From contig CP133187.1 in the NCBI GenBank assembly GCA_030913685.1, positions 620,001 through 684,000 of the forward strand: DNA of 64,000 nt, written 5' to 3'. How positions within the stretch are numbered: the stretch's first letter is position 1; each line of letters starts with the position of its first letter. Below the pieces are notes generated by a model that was not told the DNA's origin, ran no database searches, and saw only the letters and a list, made by a program, of their open reading frames with translations. This document shows, in pieces, positions 435 to 39,334 of this stretch. The DNA is from Oscillospiraceae bacterium MB24-C1. GTDB taxonomy: Bacteria; Bacillota; Clostridia; Oscillospirales; Ruminococcaceae. A program made the position numbers and the translations under genes.

Positions 435-2144
435 TTGAATATGATAAAAAGACTGTTTTGTTTACTGGTTGTGGTAATGATGGTGGCGGCTATGCTGCCC
501 GCAACGGCGTTAGCCGTCAGTAAAGAGGCCGTCAATGTGGAAAACCACGGCCTTTCAATTAGCGGATATCCTAACTCGGCGTTGCCGATTGGCAGTGGTT
601 ACAGGCTGTGGGTAGAAGAACCTAACCCTGGAAGTATGGTGCTAAAACTCAGCGGCCCGAGTAGCGCGGTCGATCCAAAATACGATGACCAGACCATCTA
701 TTATAATCTCGGTAGCCAAAGCTACGTTATTTGGAACGGTATTACCATTACACGTAGTAGTGCGTACGATGGCTGGACTCCTGATCAATACTGCACGTTC
801 AACGTTGTTGATGACGACAGCGACACAACCGTCAGCTCAAACAACATCACTCTGCTCGATTTTACCAAGCGAAAAATAACAAAAAACCAAGCCATTAACC
901 CCACTTTTCAAATAGTCGACTACAATGTAGAGGATTCCGAGGTGGCATCCGACACTCTCCCCTACCTCACTGGCTACAACTCCAACGCCTCTTTTTCGTT
1001 ATTAAGCACTGCTAAAGATCGACTTATCATAGAGCGTGTCCCCAATCCCGCAAGCGGCAAATTTACCTTTAAAATTACTTTACCGCTTAAATACACCGGC
1101 ACCGGCAATAGTCTGTCCTTCACATTAGCATACCGCACCGACAGCGATTCCTTGCGCACACTGGATTGCACCACCACGATTCCATATACCGAAGAGTATA
1201 AAGACGATGACGATGACGATGATGACGATAATGACTCCGACTCCCCCGTCCCCTACATCATCGTAGATAGCTACTCCTACGGCGGCAACAGCGTGACGGC
1301 GGGCGATGAATTTACCTTAAAGCTGAGGCTTCGCAATACCAGCACTACAAACTCCCTTGTCAACATCGTCATGAACATCTCACCGATGGGTGTGTTCTCA
1401 ATGGCCAGCTCGTCAAACACCTTCTTTATCAATCAGCTTCAAGCTGGTAGTGTAATAGAACGTGAAATTACGCTAAAGGCTGGACTGACCAAAGTAACCG
1501 ACGACGACGACGCCAACTCCATTGACATGAAATTTACATACCAGTACGCCGGAACCGACGTTAAAAAACTAGAATCGGGCACCTCCAACGAAAGCATTAC
1601 CCTGCCAGTAGATTTTCCTGATCGGTTCGAGTTAGGCGTTCCCGAGTCAGACGACGCCGCCTATATTGGCGAGGATTTTTATATCTCGGTGCCGATGGTC
1701 AACAAAGGGCGTAGCGGGGTTTATAACCTCACCGCTTTTGTCCGTGGCGACGGCCTCAAAAACCCGGGTCAAACTCAATACATCGGCAATCTAAACGCCG
1801 GTACTGAGTCAAGCGCAGACTTTTCGTTGCAATATCTCGAGCCCGGCGATTACAGCGGCGAAATCGTCGTCACTTATGAGGATGCCAACATGAATCCCAA
1901 GGAAATGATCTCGGTCTTTAATGTCACTGTTGAGGACATGTGGGGTGGCGAGCCGATGGAGCCGGAATTTCCCGATGGCTTTGACCCCAACGAGCCAGCC
2001 GAGCCGACGAATACCGAGCCGGAGAACGACCCCGTTCGACCCGTCAAAATTGTCGTCGGTCTCATCGTCTGTGCTATGAGTGCCTATGTGACCATCCAGA
2101 AGGCCAAAGCCAAGAGGAGTATCTATTTAGATGAAGACCTTTGA
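435..2144 (+). CDS. Secreted, membrane-anchored COG1361-like Ig-domain protein of an ABC exporter operon
   Basis: The protein has an N-terminal signal peptide (KRLFCLLVVVMMVAAM then an ALA site), several beta-rich Ig/CARDB-like repeats, a run of nine aspartates near the middle, a Pro/Glu-rich stretch and a C-terminal membrane helix (IVVGLIVCAMSAYV) followed by basic residues. Most of it should lie outside the cell. The TTG at 435 is preferred because AAGGAG ends 9 nt before it; an ATG at 408 overlaps the ATPase stop and lacks a good ribosome site. The gene lies between the ATPase and permease and overlaps the permease start by 14 nt, so it is probably a periplasm-side partner of the transporter. 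The exact role is unknown. Confidence 0.75.
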   Translation: MNMIKRLFCLLVVVMMVAAMLPATALAVSKEAVNVENHGLSISGYPNSALPIGSGYRLWVEEPNPGSMVLKLSGPSSAVDPKYDDQTIYYNLGSQSYVIWNGITITRSSAYDGWTPDQYCTFNVVDDDSDTTVSSNNITLLDFTKRKITKNQAINPTFQIVDYNVEDSEVASDTLPYLTGYNSNASFSLLSTAKDRLIIERVPNPASGKFTFKITLPLKYTGTGNSLSFTLAYRTDSDSLRTLDCTTTIPYTEEYKDDDDDDDDDNDSDSPVPYIIVDSYSYGGNSVTAGDEFTLKLRLRNTSTTNSLVNIVMNISPMGVFSMASSSNTFFINQLQAGSVIEREITLKAGLTKVTDDDDANSIDMKFTYQYAGTDVKKLESGTSNESITLPVDFPDRFELGVPESDDAAYIGEDFYISVPMVNKGRSGVYNLTAFVRGDGLKNPGQTQYIGNLNAGTESSADFSLQYLEPGDYSGEIVVTYEDANMNPKEMISVFNVTVEDMWGGEPMEPEFPDGFDPNEPAEPTNTEPENDPVRPVKIVVGLIVCAMSAYVTIQKAKAKRSIYLDEDL

Positions 2145-3489
2145 TATCATCCAGATGTGCCTACGTAATCTGATCAGGCGCAAATACCGTACCTTGCTGA
2201 CCTTGATCGGCGTGGTCGCGGGCACCTGCGCCGTTGTGCTGATGATTGCGGTAGGCCTCGGTATGAAAGCCAATCAGGAAGAGCAGCTGGCACAGATGGG
2301 CGACTTGACCATCATTGAGGTATATAGTTATGGTCAGACCGATAAATTGGGCAACAAAGTGATCATGGACGACGCCATGGTCGAGAAAATCAGATCAATG
2401 CCCGGCGTTTTGACCGCAACACCGCTTTATCGTCCCCAAAATCTAAGTGCGCAGCTCTTCGCTGGTAAAAACGAGCGATATATGACCTATTTTTACAACG
2501 TCATCGGTGTATATCCTGACGCCCTTCCCCTTCTGGGTTATGAGCTAATGGAGGGCACATGGGAGGATGCGTTTGCAGCGCCATATTCCATTGTCATGGG
2601 GCAATACGGCGCCTACAACCTTCAGGATACTCGAAAAAAGCGCGGCAATAACCGCGTGGACCCCTACCCCGACCGCTTTGGTAACATCTCCGATCCGTTT
2701 GTCAATATGTTGGAAAGCAAGCTGCTCATCCGTCTGCAACAGGAAAGCGAAAGCGCAAAAAAGATCGAATATAAGCCCAAGGTCACTGCCGTAATGAAAG
2801 AGGATTGGCAACGCGGCTATGAGACCTCACGCGGCATGTTTATGTCCATTACCGATTTAAAAAAGATGGAGGCCGACTACATGAAGGCCAACAAGATTAA
2901 AGTGGACAGAAACAACAATAACGGCTATGAAGAGACCAAGGTTAAGGTCACCGATATTAATTACGTCGATACGGTGCAGACCGCCATTGACGATATGGGC
3001 TTTGACACCTGGTCGATGGAAAGCATCCGCAAACCAATGGTTGAGCAGACCAAAAAAACTCAGATTTTCCTTGGGATGATCGCAGGCGTTTCGCTTTTTG
3101 TCGCATCGCTGGGCATCATCAACACCATGCTAATGAGTGTGTATGAGCGCACCCGCGAAATTGGCGTTATGAAGGTAGTCGGCTGTCACGTCAAGGATAT
3201 CCGCACCCTGTTTCTTATGGAAGCCGGTTGCATCGGCCTGCTCGGCGGTATCGTAGGTATTGTTTTAAGTGGCTCTATTGCTTACCTGGTCAATTACATG
3301 GGCCTGAGCATTAGTTTCGGCACAGACATTTTCGGCAGAGGCGACGGCCCAGCGCAGATGTTCATCATCACACCGTGGCTTGTTATGCTGGCTCTGGTAT
3401 TTTCAACCCTTATCGGCATTCTCTCTGGCTACTACCCGGCCAACCGCGCTGTTAAAATTTCGGCTCTAACCGCCATTAAACAAGAATAG
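2131..3489 (+). CDS. ABC transporter permease, MacB/FtsX family
   Basis: This has MacB permease architecture. One N-terminal membrane helix follows the RRKYRTLLTLIGVVAG segment. A large extracytoplasmic domain spans roughly residues 50-300. Three C-terminal helices follow, with the FtsX signature SVYERTREIGVMKVVG around residue 340. The C-terminus (ANRAVKISALTAIK) is also typical. It overlaps the preceding gene and should pair with the ATPase encoded at the window start. Such systems act in export or envelope stress (mechanotransmission) rather than import. The substrate cannot be read from the sequence. A strong hairpin follows the stop. Confidence 0.85.
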   Translation: MKTFDIIQMCLRNLIRRKYRTLLTLIGVVAGTCAVVLMIAVGLGMKANQEEQLAQMGDLTIIEVYSYGQTDKLGNKVIMDDAMVEKIRSMPGVLTATPLYRPQNLSAQLFAGKNERYMTYFYNVIGVYPDALPLLGYELMEGTWEDAFAAPYSIVMGQYGAYNLQDTRKKRGNNRVDPYPDRFGNISDPFVNMLESKLLIRLQQESESAKKIEYKPKVTAVMKEDWQRGYETSRGMFMSITDLKKMEADYMKANKIKVDRNNNNGYEETKVKVTDINYVDTVQTAIDDMGFDTWSMESIRKPMVEQTKKTQIFLGMIAGVSLFVASLGIINTMLMSVYERTREIGVMKVVGCHVKDIRTLFLMEAGCIGLLGGIVGIVLSGSIAYLVNYMGLSISFGTDIFGRGDGPAQMFIITPWLVMLALVFSTLIGILSGYYPANRAVKISALTAIKQE

Positions 3490-3500
3490 TATGTATTGTT

Positions 3501-3560
3501 TATAGTTTTAAAAGGCCCTGATGCGGACAAAAGTCTACATCAGGGCCTTTTAAAACTATA
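3501..3560. terminator. Bidirectional intrinsic terminator
   Basis: A long inverted repeat (arms about 20 nt, TAGTTTTAAAAGGCCCTGATG and its complement) sits between two convergent genes. A-rich and T-rich flanks on each side allow termination in both directions. Confidence 0.85.
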
Positions 3561-3593
3561 TTTTGCGTATGGTACAAGGTATGGTACGGCCAT

Positions 3594-4601
3594 TTAACCG
3601 CCCGCTAGATTGCGAATTTCGATATGCTGATCCCAATCCCAAAGGCTTTGATAGCGAATTGAAGCACGTAACGCCTTATCAGCGGCTTCGCTGAATTCAC
3701 CATAGTTTGGAACACTGATCTCCGCACCCAAGCCTTTAACATAATCGAAGCCCCTTTGTTCCTGCTGCAAAACCAACTCATCATTCGCCGCAATAGAATA
3801 GGCCACCGCCTCGGTAAGAACCGCTTGTTCAAAAGAGGTCAATAATTCCTTTGCTGGTTGAGACAGTACCAACCAGTTTACCCGCGCACGATGAAAGCTT
3901 TTGCATACCGAGAATTGGGAGTTTTCCTTAGGAGCACTCAGTTCTTCGAGGGCCAATGTATCACATTCCATAACCGCATTATCACGATTGCGTCCAAAGT
4001 TCAACAACAGATATTCGCTGCTGCGCTCCTTAACCGTGGCGCCGACCGCCTTGAGCACTTCGGCAAGCACCGGATCCTCCAAAATGTTGACTGTACTGTC
4101 CTGGAACTGGTCAACGGTATCAAATAGCTTATCACGCGATGAGAGAATCACGCTATTTCCATCGTAAAAAGCGCCTATCGGCATTGCGTTCATCAAGCTA
4201 AGGTTCTTCTCTCTTATGATATCATAAAAGTTCTTGGAATTCAGCGTTAAGGTCAGATGCTTATAGTCATAAAAATAGAATGGTGAAATATAAGAGTTAA
4301 AGTTACCGTTTGCCCGCACAAGCTCCGTCGTAGGGGCAAAAATTAGTTCACAGCCATTGTCGAGTGAGCCAAGCAAATCGTCGCTCTCCACCACTTTGAC
4401 AATCAGCTGTCCGCCGGAAATTTGACGTACCTTTTTGGCGAAACAATCCACACCGGCCTGCCCATGAGAAGAGATATCCGTCTTAACCGCCAAGGTCAAT
4501 ATACGAACCTCTTTCCCTATTTCTGCGTACTCATCCTTGCCGCACCCGCCCAGCAGGCACAGCATCAGTATCATACACAGAAAAGCCAACCGTTTTTTCA
4601 T
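3594..4601 (-). CDS. Lipoprotein resembling a TRAP (DctP-type) solute-binding protein
   Basis: A lipoprotein signal with lipobox LLGGC puts the anchoring Cys at residue 20. The mature region resembles DctP-family binding proteins, including VDCFAKKVRQISGGQLIVKV near the start, then a two-lobe alpha/beta pattern. No TRAP membrane genes lie nearby. It is instead the last gene of an operon with an MBOAT O-acyltransferase and a DHHW protein, and its start overlaps the upstream stop by 4 nt. A role as a carbohydrate- or acyl-binding partner of that pathway is inference. Fold-family confidence is moderate; function is unproven. Confidence 0.7.
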   Translation of the reverse strand: MKKRLAFLCMILMLCLLGGCGKDEYAEIGKEVRILTLAVKTDISSHGQAGVDCFAKKVRQISGGQLIVKVVESDDLLGSLDNGCELIFAPTTELVRANGNFNSYISPFYFYDYKHLTLTLNSKNFYDIIREKNLSLMNAMPIGAFYDGNSVILSSRDKLFDTVDQFQDSTVNILEDPVLAEVLKAVGATVKERSSEYLLLNFGRNRDNAVMECDTLALEELSAPKENSQFSVCKSFHRARVNWLVLSQPAKELLTSFEQAVLTEAVAYSIAANDELVLQQEQRGFDYVKGLGAEISVPNYGEFSEAADKALRASIRYQSLWDWDQHIEIRNLAGG

Positions 4602-13863: not shown

Positions 13864-13912
13864 ATAAAAAGCTGATTGTTTCTGCGCAAAAAATCGCAGA
13901 AGTCATCAGCTT
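13864..13912 (-). terminator. Riboswitch expression-platform terminator
   Basis: On the - strand AAGCTGAT and TTCTGCG pair with CGCAGAA and ATCAGCTT, forming a two-part stem followed by TTTTATTTT, 27 nt before the antiporter start codon. Its 5' strand includes the GATGACTTC segment the aptamer needs, so aptamer and terminator exclude each other. Confidence 0.8.
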
Positions 13913-13956
13913 AAAGCGGTTTTGGTTGAACCAAGGGAGAACTTCATTCCCAATGG
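13896..13956 (-). promoter_or_regulatory. Fluoride riboswitch (crcB motif) aptamer
   Basis: Read on the - strand, the order of conserved parts matches the crcB motif. A P1-like GGGA..TCCC stem encloses ATGAAGTTC. An AAAACCGC segment follows, then a short GCT/AGC hairpin and GCTGATGACTTCTGC. GAAGT in the first loop pairs exactly with ACTTC at the 3' end, giving the pseudoknot typical of the fluoride aptamer. In this class fluoride binding stabilises the aptamer and prevents terminator formation, switching the downstream gene on. Identification was by eye, not by covariance model. Confidence 0.85.
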
Positions 13957-14011
13957 TTGTTATCATAACACAGCACAGGTTACGGCGCAAGCAAATGTTA
14001 AAATTTTTTTA

Positions 14012-29710: not shown

Positions 29711-29786
29711 GAGCCACTAGCTCAGTTGGCAGAGCATTTGACTTTTAATCAAAGGGTCCGGAGTTCGAATCTCCGGTGGCTCACCA
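29711..29786 (+). tRNA. tRNA-Lys (anticodon TTT)
   Basis: A complete cloverleaf can be drawn. GAGCCAC pairs with GTGGCTC in the acceptor stem. The D arm is CTCAGTTGGCAGAG. The anticodon loop is CTTTTAA with anticodon TTT. The T arm is CCGGAGTTCGAATCTCCGG, and a CCA end is encoded. Its 3' part from 29739 is also the left attachment site of the integrated element. Confidence 0.97.
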
Positions 29787-29787
29787 G
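29739..29787 (+). repeat. Attachment site, left (att copy 1)
   Basis: This 49-bp sequence runs from the anticodon arm through the encoded CCA of tRNA-Lys plus one base. It recurs identically at 32149 and 34556. It completes the functional tRNA here, so insertion leaves the tRNA intact. Confidence 0.9.
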
Positions 29788-29788
29788 A

Positions 29789-29824
29789 AAAGGACATTCT
29801 GAAAAGAGTGTCCTTTTTTCCTTT
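29789..29824 (+). terminator. Element-supplied terminator for tRNA-Lys, copy 1
   Basis: AAAGGACA and TGTCCTTT-type arms are followed by TTTTTTCC just after the tRNA. Insertion moved the tRNA away from its former downstream DNA, and this hairpin would end its transcript. Confidence 0.75.
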
Positions 29825-29844
29825 TGTCATGCGTTTTTTAAGTA

Positions 29845-30723
29845 TCAAATGAGATTGTCCAGCGGACTAAAGTCCAAGAATTTTGACACGGTTTTTCGAG
29901 GTGTAGTGTGGACATATCGCTTTACCATTTCGAGCGAAGTATGGCCTAATATCTGTTGCAGCGCATAAATATCCCCACCGTTCTCTAAGAACCGTGTAGC
30001 GAAGGTATGGCGCAACAGATGTGCTTTTAGTCTTGGGATTCCAGAACGCTTTTTAAGCTTGCGGAAAAGCTGCTTAACTGTACCAAGGGAGATCGGCCGC
30101 ATATCACCCATGAGAAACAGCCGATCTGTTGCCGCTAAAGCTGGGCGGTGCGAAAGATACTTCAGCAAGACCTTTCGGGATTGTAGCCCTAATGGAACAA
30201 TACGCTGCTTGTTTCCTTTTCCCTCAACAACGATATATCCGTCAGACAGATGCAAGGCCGAAACTGTAAGAGTTACAGCTTCATTCATTCTCAAACCACA
30301 GTCTAGCATCAGGCAGCAAATGCAATAATTCCGCAGATGAATGTTATAGCGCAGATTAAAGCAGCTCATAAGCTGGCGAACTTCGGAATCCGTCAGCGTA
30401 TCAATAACTTTTCGTTTCGCTTTGGGCAATCGGAACTTCTGCGAAAAATCCACAGAGCAATATTCCTCATCATAGCACCAAGACAGAAAACACCTTAATG
30501 CCCGAACATAGGTCTGAATCGTCACGCTGCTTAAGTTACGACCAGATAAAGAAACATAGTAGCTTTTCAACATTGGCAGCGTCAGACCAGATACGTCGAA
30601 ATCGTTCCCAACAAACGACACGAAGTAACCAATACAGGAACGATAAAACGAAACAGTATTTATAGAATTGCCCTTTACTTGCTGGTCAAGCAAAAATGTT
30701 GAAAGGACAGCATCAACGGTCAT
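29845..30723 (-). CDS. Tyrosine recombinase (integrase), copy 1
   Basis: The 292-aa XerC/D-like integrase has an N-terminal SAM-like DNA-binding domain (about 1-85) and a C-terminal catalytic domain. Catalytic residues are all present: R145 in LDCGLRMNEA, K169 in EGKGNKQR, H235 and R238 in HLLRHTFATRF, H261 in ILGHTSLE and nucleophile Y270 in KRYVHTT. AAAGGAG precedes the ATG. It lies next to the att site, as expected for the enzyme inserting this element into tRNA-Lys. It is identical to the copy at 32255. Confidence 0.95.
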   Translation of the reverse strand: MTVDAVLSTFLLDQQVKGNSINTVSFYRSCIGYFVSFVGNDFDVSGLTLPMLKSYYVSLSGRNLSSVTIQTYVRALRCFLSWCYDEEYCSVDFSQKFRLPKAKRKVIDTLTDSEVRQLMSCFNLRYNIHLRNYCICCLMLDCGLRMNEAVTLTVSALHLSDGYIVVEGKGNKQRIVPLGLQSRKVLLKYLSHRPALAATDRLFLMGDMRPISLGTVKQLFRKLKKRSGIPRLKAHLLRHTFATRFLENGGDIYALQQILGHTSLEMVKRYVHTTPRKTVSKFLDFSPLDNLI

Positions 30724-31144
30724 AGTTAGAATTCTCCTTTAACCTGAATTTTGATACATGCTATATGTCACCACTCCGAGCTCATCTTCGCCCGAGTTTC
30801 CCTAATCGTTATTCTCATGCCTTAACCCCAAAGGAAATCGGGCTCGTTCGCCTTACGTTAGTGTCATCCCTAGCATGTGCAATAGAACGGCTGGACAGGG
30901 AAAATTGCAGCTAGAAGCCAAACCCTGTGCGCCTGGGCAAAGTCTGCTGTAACACAATTTTCTTGCCCTGGAGCGCTGGCTGCCGGGACGAATTGTGTTA
31001 CTCCCCTCCTAGACCACGAATTTACTCCTGAAGATAAAGCGTGGGGGGCACGGTTTGTTTTGCGGCGCAAAGCTTTGCGCGCGCAAAAACAAAGCCGAAG
31101 CCCCTCCCTACGCCCTTATGTATATCCACTCAAACCAAAATTCA
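30724..31144. other. Structured non-coding region of the element, copy 1
   Basis: No gene is supported here. Two strong inverted repeats stand out. One has perfect 11-nt arms GTAACACAATT/AATTGTGTTAC at 30949-31001. The other is a near-palindrome of about 40 nt at 31054-31093 centred on GCGCAAAGCTTTGCGC. They could be a replication or transfer origin, recombinase accessory sites or transcription terminators; the sequence alone does not decide. Confidence 0.5.
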
Positions 31145-31417
31145 TTAAAAGACTACATCAGGCTCGACGCCGATCAAGTAGGACAACCCACGGGCTGTAT
31201 CTGCAACTTCATCCAATGCCATACAAAAAAGATCACTAGCAGCACGAGAATCCGTTAGACCGCCAAACTTTTTATCCATAATGTCCGAAAAAGCCTTTAG
31301 AGAAGCGTACGCAACCCCCAGACGGGCAACCTCGTTAGAAATGTCCTCATAGATCTCAGAGGAGATTTGCGGCCTTTCCTGCGGTACCTCCAATTGAATT
31401 GCTTTAACTGTTGACAT
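31145..31417 (-). CDS. 90-aa protein of unknown function in the element, copy 1
   Basis: GGAGGT precedes ATG 31417. The protein starts MSTVKAIQLEVPQERPQ and is mostly helical, with an acidic middle (SSEIYEDISNEVARLGVAYAS) and a hydrophobic end. No cysteine motif, membrane helix or HTH is evident. It is divergent from the XRE gene across an operator cluster, so it is probably controlled by that regulator. Candidates include an excision or copy-control factor, but there is no direct sequence support. I do not recognise the family. Confidence 0.65.
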   Translation of the reverse strand: MSTVKAIQLEVPQERPQISSEIYEDISNEVARLGVAYASLKAFSDIMDKKFGGLTDSRAASDLFCMALDEVADTARGLSYLIGVEPDVVF

Positions 31418-32148: not shown

Positions 32149-32197
32149 TGACTTTTAATCAAAGGGTCCGGAGTTCGAATCTCCGGTGGCTCACCAG
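32149..32197 (+). repeat. Attachment site, middle (att copy 2)
   Basis: The 49 bp are identical to the 3' part of tRNA-Lys but preceded by unrelated DNA, so no second tRNA is formed. It is the junction between the two tandem element copies. Confidence 0.9.
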
Positions 32198-32198
32198 A

Positions 32199-32234
32199 AA
32201 AGGACATTCTGAAAAGAGTGTCCTTTTTTCCTTT
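32199..32234 (+). terminator. Terminator after att copy 2
   Basis: Same hairpin and T-run as at 29789-29824. Confidence 0.7.
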
Positions 32235-32254
32235 TGTCATGCGTTTTTTAAGTA

Positions 32255-33133
32255 TCAAATGAGATTGTCCAGCGGACTAAAGTCCAAGAATTTTGACACG
32301 GTTTTTCGAGGTGTAGTGTGGACATATCGCTTTACCATTTCGAGCGAAGTATGGCCTAATATCTGTTGCAGCGCATAAATATCCCCACCGTTCTCTAAGA
32401 ACCGTGTAGCGAAGGTATGGCGCAACAGATGTGCTTTTAGTCTTGGGATTCCAGAACGCTTTTTAAGCTTGCGGAAAAGCTGCTTAACTGTACCAAGGGA
32501 GATCGGCCGCATATCACCCATGAGAAACAGCCGATCTGTTGCCGCTAAAGCTGGGCGGTGCGAAAGATACTTCAGCAAGACCTTTCGGGATTGTAGCCCT
32601 AATGGAACAATACGCTGCTTGTTTCCTTTTCCCTCAACAACGATATATCCGTCAGACAGATGCAAGGCCGAAACTGTAAGAGTTACAGCTTCATTCATTC
32701 TCAAACCACAGTCTAGCATCAGGCAGCAAATGCAATAATTCCGCAGATGAATGTTATAGCGCAGATTAAAGCAGCTCATAAGCTGGCGAACTTCGGAATC
32801 CGTCAGCGTATCAATAACTTTTCGTTTCGCTTTGGGCAATCGGAACTTCTGCGAAAAATCCACAGAGCAATATTCCTCATCATAGCACCAAGACAGAAAA
32901 CACCTTAATGCCCGAACATAGGTCTGAATCGTCACGCTGCTTAAGTTACGACCAGATAAAGAAACATAGTAGCTTTTCAACATTGGCAGCGTCAGACCAG
33001 ATACGTCGAAATCGTTCCCAACAAACGACACGAAGTAACCAATACAGGAACGATAAAACGAAACAGTATTTATAGAATTGCCCTTTACTTGCTGGTCAAG
33101 CAAAAATGTTGAAAGGACAGCATCAACGGTCAT
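32255..33133 (-). CDS. Tyrosine recombinase (integrase), copy 2
   Basis: The protein is identical to the product of the gene at 29845, with all catalytic residues (R145, K169, H235, R238, H261, Y270) intact. Both copies should therefore be active and able to recombine any of the three att sites, giving excision of one or both units. Confidence 0.95.
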   Translation of the reverse strand: MTVDAVLSTFLLDQQVKGNSINTVSFYRSCIGYFVSFVGNDFDVSGLTLPMLKSYYVSLSGRNLSSVTIQTYVRALRCFLSWCYDEEYCSVDFSQKFRLPKAKRKVIDTLTDSEVRQLMSCFNLRYNIHLRNYCICCLMLDCGLRMNEAVTLTVSALHLSDGYIVVEGKGNKQRIVPLGLQSRKVLLKYLSHRPALAATDRLFLMGDMRPISLGTVKQLFRKLKKRSGIPRLKAHLLRHTFATRFLENGGDIYALQQILGHTSLEMVKRYVHTTPRKTVSKFLDFSPLDNLI

Positions 33134-33551
33134 AGTTAGAATTCTCCTTTAACCTGAATTTTGATACATGCTATATGTCACCACTCCGAGCTCATCTTCG
33201 CCCGAGTTTCCCTAATCGTTATTCTCATGCCTTAACCCCAAAGGAAATCGGGCTCGTTCGCCTTACGTTAGTGTCATCCCTAGCATGTGCAATAGAACGG
33301 CTGGACAGGGAAAATTGCAGCTAGAAGCCAAACCCTGTGCGCCTGGGCAAAGTCTGCTGTAACACAATTTTCTTGCCCTGGAGCGCTGGCTGCCGGGACG
33401 AATTGTGTTACTCCTCCTAGACCACGAATTTACTCCTGAAGATAAAGCGTGGGGGCACGGTTTGTTTTGCGGCGCAAAGCTTTGCGCGCGCAAAAACAAA
33501 GCCGAAGCCCCTCCCTACGCCCTTATGTATATCCACTCAAACCAAAATTCA
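33134..33551. other. Structured non-coding region of the element, copy 2
   Basis: Same palindromes as in copy 1, the 40-nt one now at 33461-33500. This copy is 3 bp shorter, from one C-rich and one G-run length difference. Confidence 0.5.
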
Positions 33552-33824
33552 TTAAAAGACTACATCAGGCTCGACGCCGATCAAGTAGGACAACCCACGG
33601 GCTGTATCTGCAACTTCATCCAATGCCATACAAAAAAGATCACTAGCAGCACGAGAATCCGTTAGACCGCCAAACTTTTTATCCATAATGTCCGAAAAAG
33701 CCTTTAGAGAAGCGTACGCAACCCCCAGACGGGCAACCTCGTTAGAAATGTCCTCATAGATCTCAGAGGAGATTTGCGGCCTTTCCTGCGGTACCTCCAA
33801 TTGAATTGCTTTAACTGTTGACAT
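33552..33824 (-). CDS. 90-aa protein of unknown function in the element, copy 2
   Basis: Identical protein to that of 31145-31417, with the same GGAGGT ribosome site and the same position opposite the XRE gene. Function unknown. Confidence 0.65.
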   Translation of the reverse strand: MSTVKAIQLEVPQERPQISSEIYEDISNEVARLGVAYASLKAFSDIMDKKFGGLTDSRAASDLFCMALDEVADTARGLSYLIGVEPDVVF

Positions 33825-34846: not shown

Positions 34847-35560
34847 TCATAAATCCCTTGTTTTCAAATTTGACAAAACACTTAATGTACCAAATTCCAT
34901 GATGCCGCCACTCGTTCGGTTGCATACAAATTTATTTGAAAAGAAATCTATGTATTTATTTTCATGGGAATATATATTGGATGTCGGATAGATTAATATT
35001 CTAGTAGTATCTAATGCTCTAAAGCTATCAATTGACAGTTTTGAATTAGTGACTTGTCCAAATATAAGCCTATCAAATCTCATTTTACCTCCATACCAAT
35101 GCTGTTTAATCCTCTTCAAAATGTCTTGTGTGGTTCCAATGTATAGCTGACAGAATTTATCAAGTATCATTATGTAATAGCCCGGGCAACTATAGTTTGT
35201 CAAGTCAGTAATTTCAAAAAATGGAGATCTGTGAAGGAAGTTAGTAATTTCTCTTTCAAACTCTTCATGATCCAATTTCCCAAAAAACTCAATATTTAGA
35301 TCATAGTTCTGCATCACTTTAGCCAAGTGCGTTTTACACCAATCGTCTTTGTATACTAGACCTTCATAATCAGCATAAACTTCAGAATAACACTTTATAA
35401 GGTTCTCGTCTTTATCTTCTAGTGCTTTAATGTATATTAAATTTTTCCCTAGTGTACTTTTGTTTGAAACGTCAGCATAATTTTCTCGTGTTAATTTATA
35501 ACCACGCGTCCGAAAATTCATTGATACTCCAAAATGAGTAATAGAGCTATGTTTCATCAT
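34847..35560 (-). CDS. GIY-YIG nuclease-like protein downstream of the reverse transcriptases
   Basis: The C-terminal half carries a GIY-YIG core. PGYYIMI (127-130) stands for GIY, LYIG (140-142) for YIG, then R150 with H154 in LKRIKQHW, E200 in SHENKYIDFF and N214 in VCNRTSG. These match the catalytic Tyr, Arg and Glu positions of the fold. The first 120 residues are unlike anything I recognise. It is AT-rich like the two RT genes, points the same way and lies 166 bp downstream of the second RT. It may be an effector or a passenger of the defence locus. ATG 35560 or 35557 follows AGAGG. Confidence 0.65.
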   Translation of the reverse strand: MMKHSSITHFGVSMNFRTRGYKLTRENYADVSNKSTLGKNLIYIKALEDKDENLIKCYSEVYADYEGLVYKDDWCKTHLAKVMQNYDLNIEFFGKLDHEEFEREITNFLHRSPFFEITDLTNYSCPGYYIMILDKFCQLYIGTTQDILKRIKQHWYGGKMRFDRLIFGQVTNSKLSIDSFRALDTTRILIYPTSNIYSHENKYIDFFSNKFVCNRTSGGIMEFGTLSVLSNLKTRDL

Positions 35561-35726
35561 ATACCTCTTAGTTCATTAAATATTCAAGGAGTGATGATTA
35601 TTATCTATTTTGGTCCAGAAGAGTGCCTTCTGGCTTGCCCCTTAAGTAAACATAATTGTCAATTAAGAAACTATACAAAAATGTGATGGGGATGTATTTT
35701 CAGAATATATAAGCAATGTTACCTTA

Positions 35727-37745
35727 TTAATCAATACTAGCATATAACCCATACTTATTTCCTCTGTAGTTCTTAAACAGCGTTCTCTGATATGTACGGA
35801 ATGTCATGATTTCGCTTATATTGTTATTTCTGTTATTCCAATTAAAGAAACTCTCTTTGGGCTTATTCCCTGTTGCATCCTTGCGTAACAAATAGTCACA
35901 TACAAGACGCGTTGCTTGAGCACTAGGAGTATCTTCTGCGGCATCATTTTTTATCGATATGATAATATTTGTGGCTCTATCTTTTATCGCTTGTGATAAA
36001 AACGGACAGTTATGAAAAACCAACACAAACCAGAATTCTTGTTGCTCCAAGTGCTTTTTGTCAACTATTTTTTCTAGTTCAGAAGATATGATTCCCTCCA
36101 AATTTGCCACTGTTTTATTGAAGAATGGCTCGTGATATTCTGAATAAAGCAGAATGTTTGCTAACACTAACGGATTCCTCTCGTCTTGTGCCTTCTGATA
36201 AACGGCATTTTCGACACTCTTGCCGAGTGTTAGTCCATACTCTCTAAAAAATATAAACCAATCGCACAAATCGGCAAGATTGCCACGTTCGAAAAGGAAT
36301 TCATACCGGTTGATTACTTGCTGTAGCTTCTCATTTTCCTTGCTTTCTATCTCAGAGAAACCTACCTCTGTGTTCATAAAGACAAGTATAGATATTAGCT
36401 TTCGGGTATGCTCAAAACATGGCGAGTATGAATACATAAACATTGACAAATCAACAAACAAAGTAGCCTTTTTTGTTGTGCCTTCTTTAAATAACTGGTA
36501 TCCATCCTTCTTTAAACTAAATTTATTAAGTAGCGTTGATAGAAGAAAAGACACAATTGTTCGTCTGTCTTGCGGAAATTCCTTCATCAAAATCACAAAC
36601 TCGTCTTTCATTCTGTCTACGGACACAAAATCAGATTTTACTATGTATCGTTTGTCCTCTTCTAAACTCTGATACTCCTGTTTTGTGCCACAAAAAAAGC
36701 ACTCACTTATCTTATCAGCAAGAATGCGTGTTTTCTCAATCCAATTGCTGAATGTTGCCGGTGTCTCACACTCACTGAATTTGAGTTCGTTGAGTCTGAG
36801 AAGGTACTTCCCGCTAATGGACTGAAATGTAGCAATTATCTTTTCCCGTATCTCCGGAGTGTTGGAGAAAATAAATATATCGTCTACATATCTGAAAACT
36901 CGATAATCCTTCTTCACTTGGAAACCGCACTTTAGAAGCTCAACCAAAACCTCGGAATCAATTTGTTGTAATAGTATTTCAACTATCATTCGAGAAAACT
37001 CCGGGCCAACCACAACCCCATTTGACGAGTGACAATTAATGTTCTGTATAAGCCTGTCAATTGTTAGGTAGATGCTTGAATTACGGGCTTCTTTTGAGTC
37101 GATTACTTTACCCTCAATAATCCACTTGTATGAATGGGAATATATACTATCGAAGCAAGACTTGTAGTCTATTTTGGCAAAATACCGATATTTGAAATTG
37201 CATATACGCCAAATACGCGAAGCGGTAAATGACCTTACAGAATCAAACGGAGCAATCTTAAAGTATCCCCCTGTTTGTTGTAAGACGCCTTTGCCAATTT
37301 TTATAGATTCTGCCCTGAAATACTCAAATGCATTTTTTGAGCGTGTTCTGTAGTATAAATCGTTGCTCTTACGATGATAGCGAATGGAAAAACAATGATT
37401 TTTCTCAAACAAGTCTAATAGGCGCTTTTGATAGCACTCTATAAATAGGTAAATATTCAGTGCAGACAATGGCTGAATTAGGCTCATTTCCCGTAGCGAA
37501 TTGACACCTTTAAGAATATTAAACTTCAATGGTGCAGTTGCCCACTTGTCTTTAAACAGAACAACATTGCTTTTTGCTTGTTCTGTTTTCAATTCTTCGA
37601 TCAAGCTCGTAAGAACGGTGCTATTTTCCTTACGAAGGAGAAAGTCATAGAATGAACGGAACGAAAACAACTCCGATATCTCTACAGGGAGAAGTTCAGA
37701 TAAAATAAAATCCAGTTTATTTCGTTCAATTCCATTCCAACTCAT
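35727..37745 (-). CDS. drt3b: Reverse transcriptase, probable Drt3b (UG8-type) of a DRT type 3 system
   Basis: The 672-aa protein has an RT domain in its N-terminal half. Motif A is AKIDYKSCFDSIYS (D193), motif B SNGVVVGPEFSRMIVEI (241-257) and motif C RYVDDIFIF (YVDD 286-289). A long, mainly helical C-terminal region of about 370 residues has no maturase, endonuclease or other known domain. That excludes group II introns and retrons and fits the unknown-group defence RTs. Being paired with a second RT gene is the hallmark of DRT3. The literature on DRT3 describes Drt3b as making a dinucleotide-repeat strand; that role is by family only. The ribosome site is AAGGTGG. Confidence 0.75.
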   Translation of the reverse strand: MSWNGIERNKLDFILSELLPVEISELFSFRSFYDFLLRKENSTVLTSLIEELKTEQAKSNVVLFKDKWATAPLKFNILKGVNSLREMSLIQPLSALNIYLFIECYQKRLLDLFEKNHCFSIRYHRKSNDLYYRTRSKNAFEYFRAESIKIGKGVLQQTGGYFKIAPFDSVRSFTASRIWRICNFKYRYFAKIDYKSCFDSIYSHSYKWIIEGKVIDSKEARNSSIYLTIDRLIQNINCHSSNGVVVGPEFSRMIVEILLQQIDSEVLVELLKCGFQVKKDYRVFRYVDDIFIFSNTPEIREKIIATFQSISGKYLLRLNELKFSECETPATFSNWIEKTRILADKISECFFCGTKQEYQSLEEDKRYIVKSDFVSVDRMKDEFVILMKEFPQDRRTIVSFLLSTLLNKFSLKKDGYQLFKEGTTKKATLFVDLSMFMYSYSPCFEHTRKLISILVFMNTEVGFSEIESKENEKLQQVINRYEFLFERGNLADLCDWFIFFREYGLTLGKSVENAVYQKAQDERNPLVLANILLYSEYHEPFFNKTVANLEGIISSELEKIVDKKHLEQQEFWFVLVFHNCPFLSQAIKDRATNIIISIKNDAAEDTPSAQATRLVCDYLLRKDATGNKPKESFFNWNNRNNNISEIMTFRTYQRTLFKNYRGNKYGLYASID

Positions 37746-37773
37746 TGACTTCTACCACCTTATTTATTAAAAT
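37745..37773 (+). promoter_or_regulatory. Opposite-strand promoter between the two RT genes
   Basis: TTGACT, exactly 17 nt, then TAAAAT on the + strand, directed into the gap between the RT genes. Predicted start is about 37780. It overlaps the drt3b start codon region. Confidence 0.65.
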
Positions 37774-37779
37774 AATATT

Positions 37780-37936
37780 GCAAGATAAGATCGCTACTTG
37801 CTTGCAGTGCTTCGGCACACACATCATCGGCGCACCGCCTGCTTTGCAATTTTACATATGCGACGGTTCGTTTAGAACATACCTACGGGAAATGTTCAAC
37901 AAAGGGGCAGGGGAAACCTTGTCCCTTTGTTTAATA
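37780..37936 (+). ncRNA. Candidate DRT3-associated non-coding RNA
   Basis: The predicted transcript of about 155 nt runs against the RT genes and fills the gap between them. Hairpins in order are GCAAG/CTTGC (37780-37801), GTGC-TTCG-GCAC with the extra-stable C(UUCG)G loop (37807-37818), GGCG-CAC-CGCC (37829-37839) and GAACAT/ATGTTC (37875-37897). A 14-bp terminator-like hairpin (37898-37931) with GGAAA loop and TTTGTTTAAT completes it. ACACACA (37817-37823) lies at the foot of the UUCG hairpin, leading into an unpaired stretch. TTGC/GCAA and GCA/TGC pairs enclose the central two hairpins. Orientation is inferred from the promoter, UUCG loop and T-run. Confidence 0.6.
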
Positions 37937-39334
37937 CCCAACTTTTGTTTTTATCAAATAGTCTCTTACTAATTCGCCATATCCCTTGTTGCGCTGGCTA
38001 TCATTGCGTTCGTTAGACCTCACAGTCAAAGGGATGCCGATTTTCTGACACATCTTTTCTAATGTGTTTCTATCAATGCCGATATGTTCTACAAACAACA
38101 TTGTTTTATTATATTTGAGGTTTTCCAACAGGTTATAGCCCCTATTGCCATTTGCGCCTTTGATGAAGTATGGGAGTGGCAATCCCGCACGATAAAACGC
38201 CTCATCAACCATATTGTTTAAAAATCGTTTCGAAACAGAATCTATAATAGTCGTATCAGTTAAATATCGCAGTTCACCATAGTTTGCAATGAATCCTTTT
38301 ACCTTCCACTGAGACGAGTTAAAATGTTTACTCATATAAACAGTTCGTTGTGCGAACGCGGCTATCCTATGGCGCAGTAACTCAAGGTCACCTTCTTCAC
38401 TTGGCACAGTTCCCATACCTTGATAAGCGTCAATGATCTCATCCATCCGTTTATTGTATTTCTTTCTTTTAGCCTCTGTTATTCCGCATCTCAATTCGAC
38501 TTTATCGTTATTAAGGCGAAAAATAAACTCATATCCTAAGTAATCCACGCGAACGGACGAATTTGTCAAAGCCCTATGAGAGATGTATACAAATTTATTG
38601 TCGTTGAATTTTGTCTTACATTTTACTCCAACGTTAATAGCTGCATCGTGATACACTTCAGTAAGAGCTTGTACAAAAATTTCATTGCACCTATCTTCGC
38701 TAATATGTTTGTTAAGGACTATTATGCTATCATCGATGTAGCGTTCAAAAAAGAGTAGTCCGCTACCGGAAAATAACATTTTTATCTTCTCATCAAACTG
38801 TTGTGCAATTATCTCAGAGATAACATTTGAGGTGCATAATCCAGCGTATGCGTAACGTGTCTGTACAGCAAAGGCATTAATAAGGTCAGTTTCAAAACGT
38901 GTTTTAATTTTGTCTTTTATGTATTTTTCAAAGACATAAATAGAGGACACTGAGTTGAAGTAATCCTTGAAGTCAAATTTGATGATAGTAAAATCCGACA
39001 TTTGCCGAATAGCTTTCATTATATCAAATAAGGCTCGAACAGACTTGTTTCTATTAGGATACTTAATTGAAAAACTTCTGTCCAGTATCTGTTTAACGCA
39101 GTGGCACAGAATATTCTCACACGAAAACTCATCAAAAACTTTTACAAGTCGTTTTTTATCATTTTGATTTAATATTATAGATTGCGCTGATGTAAAATCA
39201 TATGAACGACCTTTCGCTTTCGCAATGCTTTCGCTTATGAGAATAGTCATTTCTTCGGGTGACTTTTTATCCGAAACGGCAGCGTTTACGTTGATATGAT
39301 TAACCGCTCTTTTTACCATATCTTCAAAATTCAT
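37931..39334 (-). CDS. drt3a: Reverse transcriptase, probable Drt3a (UG3-type) of a DRT type 3 system
   Basis: The 467-aa RT has motif A FTIIKFDFKDYFNSV (D121), motif B-like YAGLCTSNVISEIIAQ and motif C FERYIDDSIIV (YIDD 199-202), then a thumb-like region and a helical C-terminus. There is no endonuclease, maturase or retron-type N-terminal element. It is the first gene of the leftward operon, with GGAGGCGAC before ATG 39334 and a promoter about 130 bp upstream. In described DRT3 systems Drt3a copies an ACACAC template in the ncRNA. The second RT gene starts 185 bp downstream. UG-group placement is from architecture, not phylogeny. Confidence 0.75.
   Translation of the reverse strand: MNFEDMVKRAVNHINVNAAVSDKKSPEEMTILISESIAKAKGRSYDFTSAQSIILNQNDKKRLVKVFDEFSCENILCHCVKQILDRSFSIKYPNRNKSVRALFDIMKAIRQMSDFTIIKFDFKDYFNSVSSIYVFEKYIKDKIKTRFETDLINAFAVQTRYAYAGLCTSNVISEIIAQQFDEKIKMLFSGSGLLFFERYIDDSIIVLNKHISEDRCNEIFVQALTEVYHDAAINVGVKCKTKFNDNKFVYISHRALTNSSVRVDYLGYEFIFRLNNDKVELRCGITEAKRKKYNKRMDEIIDAYQGMGTVPSEEGDLELLRHRIAAFAQRTVYMSKHFNSSQWKVKGFIANYGELRYLTDTTIIDSVSKRFLNNMVDEAFYRAGLPLPYFIKGANGNRGYNLLENLKYNKTMLFVEHIGIDRNTLEKMCQKIGIPLTVRSNERNDSQRNKGYGELVRDYLIKTKVGY

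Follow-up and report, generated by a model that had tools for sequence, protein, structure and literature searches.

We analyzed the 185-nt gap between two reverse transcriptase (RT) genes, drt3a (39334-37931, − strand) and drt3b (37745-35727, − strand), in a 64,000-nt stretch of the Oscillospiraceae bacterium MB24-C1 genome (contig CP133187.1, positions 620,001 to 684,000; hereafter the window, part of a 2.95-Mb genome). The gap very probably codes for the template RNA that serves a divergent DRT3 defense system carried on a prophage; this RNA would have its own + strand promoter and an antisense orientation to the drt3a-drt3b mRNA. Comparison with related loci shows that the gap specifies a predicted RNA of five conserved hairpins with a near-invariant ACACAC segment, covarying helices, strand-specific wobble pairs and tetraloops, and a promoter-like site. 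These lines of evidence come from sequence comparison and computed folding.

A conserved five-hairpin RNA in the drt3a-drt3b gap

The predicted core of the noncoding RNA (ncRNA) spans 37780..37931 on the + strand, with its 5′ end placed from the promoter and its 3′ end from hairpin 5. Folding of 37780-37933 on this strand yields −55.3 kcal/mol (z-score −4.66), which none of 200 shuffled sequences equalled, and sets at five the "four or five" hairpins that an initial annotation had proposed from the letters of this DNA. Hairpin 1 (37780..37805, +; stem GCAAG/CUUGC), supported by fold and covariation, is followed by hairpin 2 (37807..37818, +), GUGC(UUCG)GCAC, a stable stem-loop that stands directly 5′ of the template and is its proposed boundary. 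The template segment, ACACACAUCAUCGGC (37817..37831, +), begins within this stem: the last AC of hairpin 2 opens ACACACA (37817-37823), and the unpaired ACACAUCAUC follows (37819-37828), including the UCAUC after ACACACA. Fold and position agree here with the initial annotation, which had set ACACACA at the foot of the UUCG hairpin, running into an unpaired stretch. The remaining helices are hairpin 3 (37830..37871, +), in which four of eight pairs are changed on both sides and the first pair is G-U in all six loci aligned below; hairpin 4 (37875..37897, +), GAACAU...AUGUUC with an inner C(UACG)G loop, supported by covariation and the loop count; and hairpin 5 (37898..37931, +), a long stem with a GAAA loop, supported by fold, covariation and the loop count, which ends on the base where the reversed drt3a stop codon (37931-37933) begins. 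The gap RNA matches no Rfam family (best score 18.2 bits, cut-off 55.8).

The gene order drt3a-gap-drt3b is common to eight distinct loci: the window; L001 (Anaeromassilibacillus) and L002 (Clostridium simiarum), both of the class Clostridia; the IMG/VR contigs L003 and L011; L006, from G381 (a genome of the same order as the window); L015 (MT836158, a phage clone from human faeces); and L016 (phage SE-1). Duplicates were dropped (L004, L005, L012, L013, L043, L044, L073-L075, L083-L085, L095 and L096), L075 being used only as a longer copy of L006. The flanks of two loci are seen in part, as L006 starts inside drt3a and L001 stops 119 nt past drt3b.

We tested a 39-pair structure on an alignment, A5, of six loci (the window and its five closest relatives). 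Across 231 cells, 97.0% are paired, compared to 87.9% in shuffles; 13 pairs are changed on both sides, compared to 6.3; and the covariation score is 0.424, compared to 0.222 (0 of 500 shuffles as high in each case). The number of further pair types was as high in 2 of 500 shuffles. When the structure is slid, at most 49.5% of cells are paired. Unaided, RNAalifold recovers the same five helices on the + strand (−51.1 kcal/mol, covariation term −4.84). The L001 row of A5 is off by two columns at hairpin 1; the shuffle test kept this row as it was, and the wobble-pair and tetraloop counts below use a moved gap. A model-fitted alignment gives 97.4% paired and the same 13 pairs, and it underlies the count over 37 columns below.

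With 17 occurrences in the window, where 20.4 are expected, ACACAC alone is unremarkable; its weight rests on conservation. It occurs in antisense orientation in seven of the eight gaps, the window's included (L016 has ACACA), and in sense orientation in none. Within the six close loci, 14 of the 15 columns of ACACACAUCAUCGGC are invariant, compared to 43 of 146 other columns, and an unpaired ACACAC beside a stem-loop in a cis-encoded ncRNA is present in all six. In L015, ACACAC stands after a UUCG hairpin. The initial annotation had looked to related gaps for compensatory changes and a conserved ACACAC, and both are found there.

This + strand RNA could alternatively be an antisense regulator of drt3a or drt3b expression with no role as a template, given its full-length complementarity to the operon mRNA and the overlap of its promoter with the start of drt3b. 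However, simple antisense regulation would call for neither an unpaired, near-invariant ACACAC nor five helices with compensatory changes. Moreover, DRT3 requires a template RNA, and no sense ACACAC lies outside genes within 600 nt of the eight operons, as far as the contigs reach. We consider regulation without templating very unlikely; a regulatory side effect of the template RNA is possible.

With R2, a model based on the five homologues and not on the window, we found 37780-37929 (+) at 87.6 bits (E-value, E, 1.2e-21), and the next match within the window scored 6.9 bits. Across the whole genome, the RNA model gives one match, the gap. A competing match, for example in the drt3a leader, had been considered in the initial annotation; neither that leader nor the rest of the neighborhood or genome holds one comparable to that of the gap. 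Two other placements of the ncRNA, the drt3a leader and the region downstream of drt3b, were rejected because neither shows a strong model match. Among 394 genomes of the order (strict filters), strong RNA-model matches occur in only two, the same two that have full-length Drt3b. A third match, in G370 (26.3 bits), contains a hairpin resembling hairpin 5 and lies in 3.1 kb of available sequence without a drt3 gene; it was rejected as a family member and taken as chance.

Genome searches, over overlapping sets of 394 genomes of the order, 391 of the class (E ≤1e-60), 398 of the phylum (E ≤1e-40) and 220 of the G381 family (E ≤1e-40), yielded one more antisense-gap locus (G381) and one locus whose RT genes are divergent (G566). 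Two viral pattern scans returned 54 and 10 stretches, and tblastn on 55 loci (the 54 and one of the window's own) and on 9 new ones turned up no contig with drt3 genes that was not already known.

Strand, promoter and 3′ end of the RNA

A G-U pair on one strand is an A-C mismatch on the other. With the L001 gap moved, the cells of the 39 pairs comprise 204 Watson-Crick, 23 G-U and 1 A-C combinations, 5 others and 1 gap, and the excess of 23 over 1 speaks for the + strand. Because the structure had been drawn on the + strand, we added a fairer count over the 37 columns in which a Watson-Crick pair is the most frequent, which gives 13 G-U against 1 A-C cells (11 against 1 columns). GNRA or UNCG loops close 17 of 20 hairpins on the + strand and 0 of 20 on the − strand (seven loci, with L016 left out and L015 taken without hairpin 4), the exceptions being hairpins 2 and 4 of L003 and hairpin 5 of L015. 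The C(UUCG)G loop reads CGAA on the − strand and is indeed exclusive to the + orientation, as had been claimed for it.

The expected products also bear on the strand. In E. coli, DRT3a copies the ACACAC in a loop of its ncRNA into poly(dTdG), as stated in the initial annotation, and poly(dCdA) is the product of DRT3b, in which E22 and R241 act as gates and Y666 serves as primer (PMC13174585). E22, R252 and Y668 are kept in the window's Drt3b, so its predicted product is poly(dCdA) and the Drt3a template should be ACACAC rather than UGUGUG. A UGUGUG template would yield poly(dCdA), which is already expected from Drt3b, and the ACACAC strand is therefore favored.

The structured RNA might instead be part of the − strand operon transcript, either as a processed intergenic element or as a drt3b leader, with UGUGUG as its template or with a regulatory role. 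Operon transcription must cross the gap unless drt3b has its own promoter, and the hairpins also fold on the − strand, though less well (−46.8 kcal/mol for 37780-37933, z −2.53, 2 of 200 shuffles as good; −36.5 kcal/mol with a covariation term of −1.23 in RNAalifold). However, the wobble-pair and tetraloop counts, the promoter-like site conserved on the + strand and the overlap between the product of a UGUGUG template and that of Drt3b all stand against it. The sense-strand reading of the gap was rejected on the G-U/A-C counts, the tetraloops and the fold energies, and we regard it as highly improbable.

The + strand promoter with 17-nt spacing, directed against the RT genes, was already part of the initial annotation, and it recurs at the same place in homologues. 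In the window, its −35 box TTGACT (37745..37750, +) begins on the final base of the reversed drt3b start codon, and its −10 box TAAAAT (37768..37773, +) ends 6 nt before hairpin 1, a distance from which the RNA should start at hairpin 1. This sigma-70-like site, TTGACT-17-TAAAAT, agrees with the consensus at 10 of 12 positions. A scan of 37600-38050 gave 2 sites, compared to a mean of 1.1 in shuffles; the window promoter alone therefore proves little, and it is conservation in homologues that counts. In seven of the eight loci, the best antisense promoter-like match lies at the drt3b start, with 10-12 of 12 positions and 16-17 nt spacing; L006 has TTGCTT-17-TATAAT at the same place (9 of 12, tied with two other sites). 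In all eight loci, the −35 box and the reversed drt3b start codon overlap; among the seven with their best match there, the overlap is one base in six and two bases in L016, where the SE-1 promoter is perfect (TTGACA-17-TATAAT). Sense promoter-like matches in the same regions reach 7-9 positions.

The 3′ end of the ncRNA is uncertain. A terminator-like stem with a T-rich tail had been proposed; the stem, that of hairpin 5 (37898-37931), is present and conserved, but TAATACCC follows it directly, the T-rich TTTTGTTTTT comes 11 nt on (37943-37952), and a terminator scan scores only short sub-stems of the hairpin. None of the five close homologues has a run of more than four T directly after the hairpin 5 stem; L001 and L002 have TTTTT about 20 nt past it.

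Comparison with DRT3 of the E. coli type and other DRT systems

In E. coli, the DRT3 ncRNA lies downstream of drt3b. We compared the gap loci with eight proteobacterial and Bacteroidota loci (L017, L018 and L077-L082), which are eight of the best-ranked nine among 164 matching plasmid records; H7, a Pediococcus record with one RT annotated, and the other 155 records stand outside this set. In all eight, drt3a and drt3b abut or overlap and a sense ACACAC lies 43-222 nt downstream of drt3b, with an antisense ACACAC in the 450 nt downstream in one. Unlike these, the gap loci have no sense ACACAC downstream of drt3b, outside genes and within 600 nt as far as their contigs extend. The initial annotation's choice of the gap as the home of the DRT3 template RNA, divergent from the operon, is supported here, and it departs from the published downstream position.

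The Drt3b proteins of the eight gap loci are 19-22% identical to Enterobacter Drt3b, and seven comparison Drt3a are 13-18% identical to that of the window (L081 is not in the Drt3a alignment A10; L017, whose drt3b is annotated in two pieces, is out of the Drt3b tree and alignment). FastTree trees of Drt3a (17 proteins) and Drt3b (16) set the eight antisense-gap loci apart from the rest with support 1.000. One layout change explains this grouping, its direction not being given by trees without an outgroup. A further locus, L076 (G566), branches between the antisense-gap and sense-downstream loci in both trees. Its drt3a-like (341-1648, −) and drt3b-like (1898-3841, +) genes are divergently oriented, and their 249-nt spacer, part of which folds at z −1.28, holds UACACAG in the drt3a direction; this spacer is possibly a third layout of the template RNA.

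The window system and E. coli DRT3 (UG3, UG8 and an ncRNA; Wang et al. 2026, PMC13174585) have in common paired RTs with YxDD motifs, the Drt3b gate residues, a C-terminal tyrosine and an ncRNA with an ACACAC segment beside a stem-loop. They differ in that the window's RNA lies between the genes, antisense, with its promoter on the drt3b start codon, whereas the E. coli ncRNA lies downstream of drt3b. The window's Drt3a, unlike the comparison Drt3a, has an extra C-terminal stretch, and its RNA is not recognizably homologous to those of the comparison loci by model search. DRT10 (UG17) resembles the window system in that a Class 2 RT repeatedly copies a short ncRNA template placed directly after a stable stem-loop, the proposed 5′ boundary; it differs in its longer repeat units (9 nt in the case studied) and poorly conserved templates, and a second RT is not mentioned in the available text (PMC12632851). 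DRT9 also uses an RT with an ncRNA template, in its case a poly-uridine template that gives poly(dA) (PMC12632851, same text).

We found no antisense or intergenic DRT3 ncRNA in the literature, of which an incomplete part was covered, including the available text of PMC13174585, PMC13314766, PMC13213688 and PMC12632851; the words "antisense" and "opposite strand" in PMC13314766 refer to drugs and product strands. Provisionally, the gap arrangement is a previously undescribed layout variant of DRT3. The starting point of the published DRT3 RNA model was the 250-nt region behind E. coli-like operons, and the search with it extended 1 kb to each side of drt3b homologues (PMC13174585). Since the gap RNA is unlike the downstream regions of the comparison loci, this model may well miss it.

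Several observations weigh against assigning the gap RNA to a DRT3 system as its template. Both proteins fall under the NCBIfam equivalog cut-offs, with Drt3a (88.9 bits, cut-off 200) and Drt3b (235.5 bits, cut-off 350) as their best families, and the pair is therefore classed as a divergent variant of DRT3, not as an equivalog. With the window's Drt3a alone, phmmer misses the solved Drt3a (9z6y), its sole match being a DRT9 RT at E 0.017; a profile that includes the seven comparison Drt3a finds 9z6y at 1.2e-75, as expected. The full structure is present in six loci only; the assignment of L015 and L016, which score 7.3 and 8.6 bits with the model, relies on position, strand, motif and promoter. 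The 39 pairs were defined on the + strand with knowledge of all six loci, the window included, which favors G-U over A-C and makes the held-out R2 test less than fully independent. The loops were delimited by hand, and the loci are related, so their cells are not independent. As a terminator, hairpin 5 is only partly supported: it is a conserved hairpin and a weak, not convincing, candidate. Finally, the R1 model has no match in the eight comparison loci at E up to 10 (an unfiltered search of L017 gave 3.6 bits on the wrong strand), which leaves homology between the gap RNA and the comparison-locus RNAs unsupported.

With filters off, both models also give a weak match at 35615-35727 (−), on the sense strand just downstream of drt3b, in the place of the E. 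coli ncRNA (R1: 17.8 bits, E 0.00035 over 5.5 kb; R2: 14.8 bits, E 0.0011). The gap RNA might then be a relic, with the active template RNA located there. However, this segment lacks ACACAC, the model E-values are rough, and L001 has a 19.0-bit match on the wrong strand that includes the reversed hairpin 5. The gap RNA is also under visible constraint in six loci. We judge a relic to be extremely unlikely and retain the gap RNA as the predicted template.

Several steps would then lead from this RNA to defense. By analogy with E. coli DRT3 and DRT10, Drt3a would bind the gap RNA and copy its unpaired ACACAC over and over into poly(dTdG), and hairpin 2 would stop it at the 5′ side of the template, as is proposed for the DRT10 stem-loop (PMC12632851). 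Drt3b, with its conserved gate residues, would make poly(dCdA) without a nucleic-acid template, and the two products would pair into DNA that drives abortive infection. Because every part of the RNA is complementary to the operon mRNA and its promoter overlaps the start codon of drt3b, template and operon transcription may hold each other in check. A more speculative and rather doubtful extension is that a DRT3 clade of Clostridia and phages with a reversed intergenic template uses transcript competition as a switch, in which a phage that interferes with host transcription would shift the template RNA-to-mRNA ratio and set off repeat-DNA synthesis.

The antisense-gap clade provides independent template RNAs in which an identical ACACAC sits on another scaffold, so that the requirement of Drt3a itself (an unpaired ACACAC behind a stem-loop) can be told apart from lineage-specific features. 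The antisense layout also raises the question of antisense control in a self-toxic defense system.

The reverse transcriptase pair and its surroundings

The drt3a gene encodes a Class 2 (UG3-type) RT of 467 amino acids, assigned by PADLOC, NCBIfam and alignment A10, and drt3b a Class 1 (UG8-type) RT of 672 amino acids, assigned by PADLOC, NCBIfam and alignments; the catalytic motifs are YIDD and YVDD, respectively. The best PADLOC families for these side-by-side genes are Drt3a (E 3.3e-33) and Drt3b (E 2.4e-120). Among solved structures, Drt3b as a single query matches 26cz_A (4.3e-30) and 9z6y_H, a Drt3b chain (2.8e-25); judging by its length and numbering, PDB 26cz_A is probably E. coli DRT3b with a SUMO tag preceding it. 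The predicted Drt3a structure model is weak (pLDDT 65), and its nearest solved folds, those of DRT9, were given little weight for that reason. Residues E22, R85, R252 and Y668 of the window's Drt3b align to E22, R71, R241 and Y666 of E. coli DRT3b, Y668 being equated with Y666 through relatives and not by direct match to the E. coli sequence. Among 15 aligned Drt3b, the tyrosine is absent in L015 and D replaces E in L078.

The C-terminal stretch of Drt3a (37931-38130, −), which ends in VGY, is conserved in the six close loci and absent from the seven aligned proteobacterial and Bacteroidota Drt3a. It could be an RNA-binding addition that accompanies the altered RNA.

One flank of the RT pair holds an endolysin gene and a minor-head-type gene and the other holds an integrase gene and a tRNA-Lys, so that the pair looks like prophage cargo. 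In Erysipelothrix phage SE-1, the related pair lies between a CHAP-domain gene and an integrase gene. Directly downstream of drt3b, the window encodes a UzuA-like protein (34847-35560, −; PADLOC E 2.1e-77) with a weak GIY-YIG domain; a UzuA-like gene was not noticed among the open reading frames (ORFs) beside drt3b in L002, L003 and L011, where no homology search was aimed at UzuA.

A segment of about 2.4 kb, with a 292-amino-acid integrase and a 105-amino-acid ORF, occurs twice in tandem (29739-30038 = 32149-32448 and 31044-31343 = 33451-33750, repeats reported as 100% identical). Its first copy begins within the tRNA-Lys gene (29711-29786), a pattern suggestive of two integrations of a small element at a tRNA attachment site. 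The window also contains a fluoride riboswitch at 13890-13960 (−), with a score of 48.2 bits.

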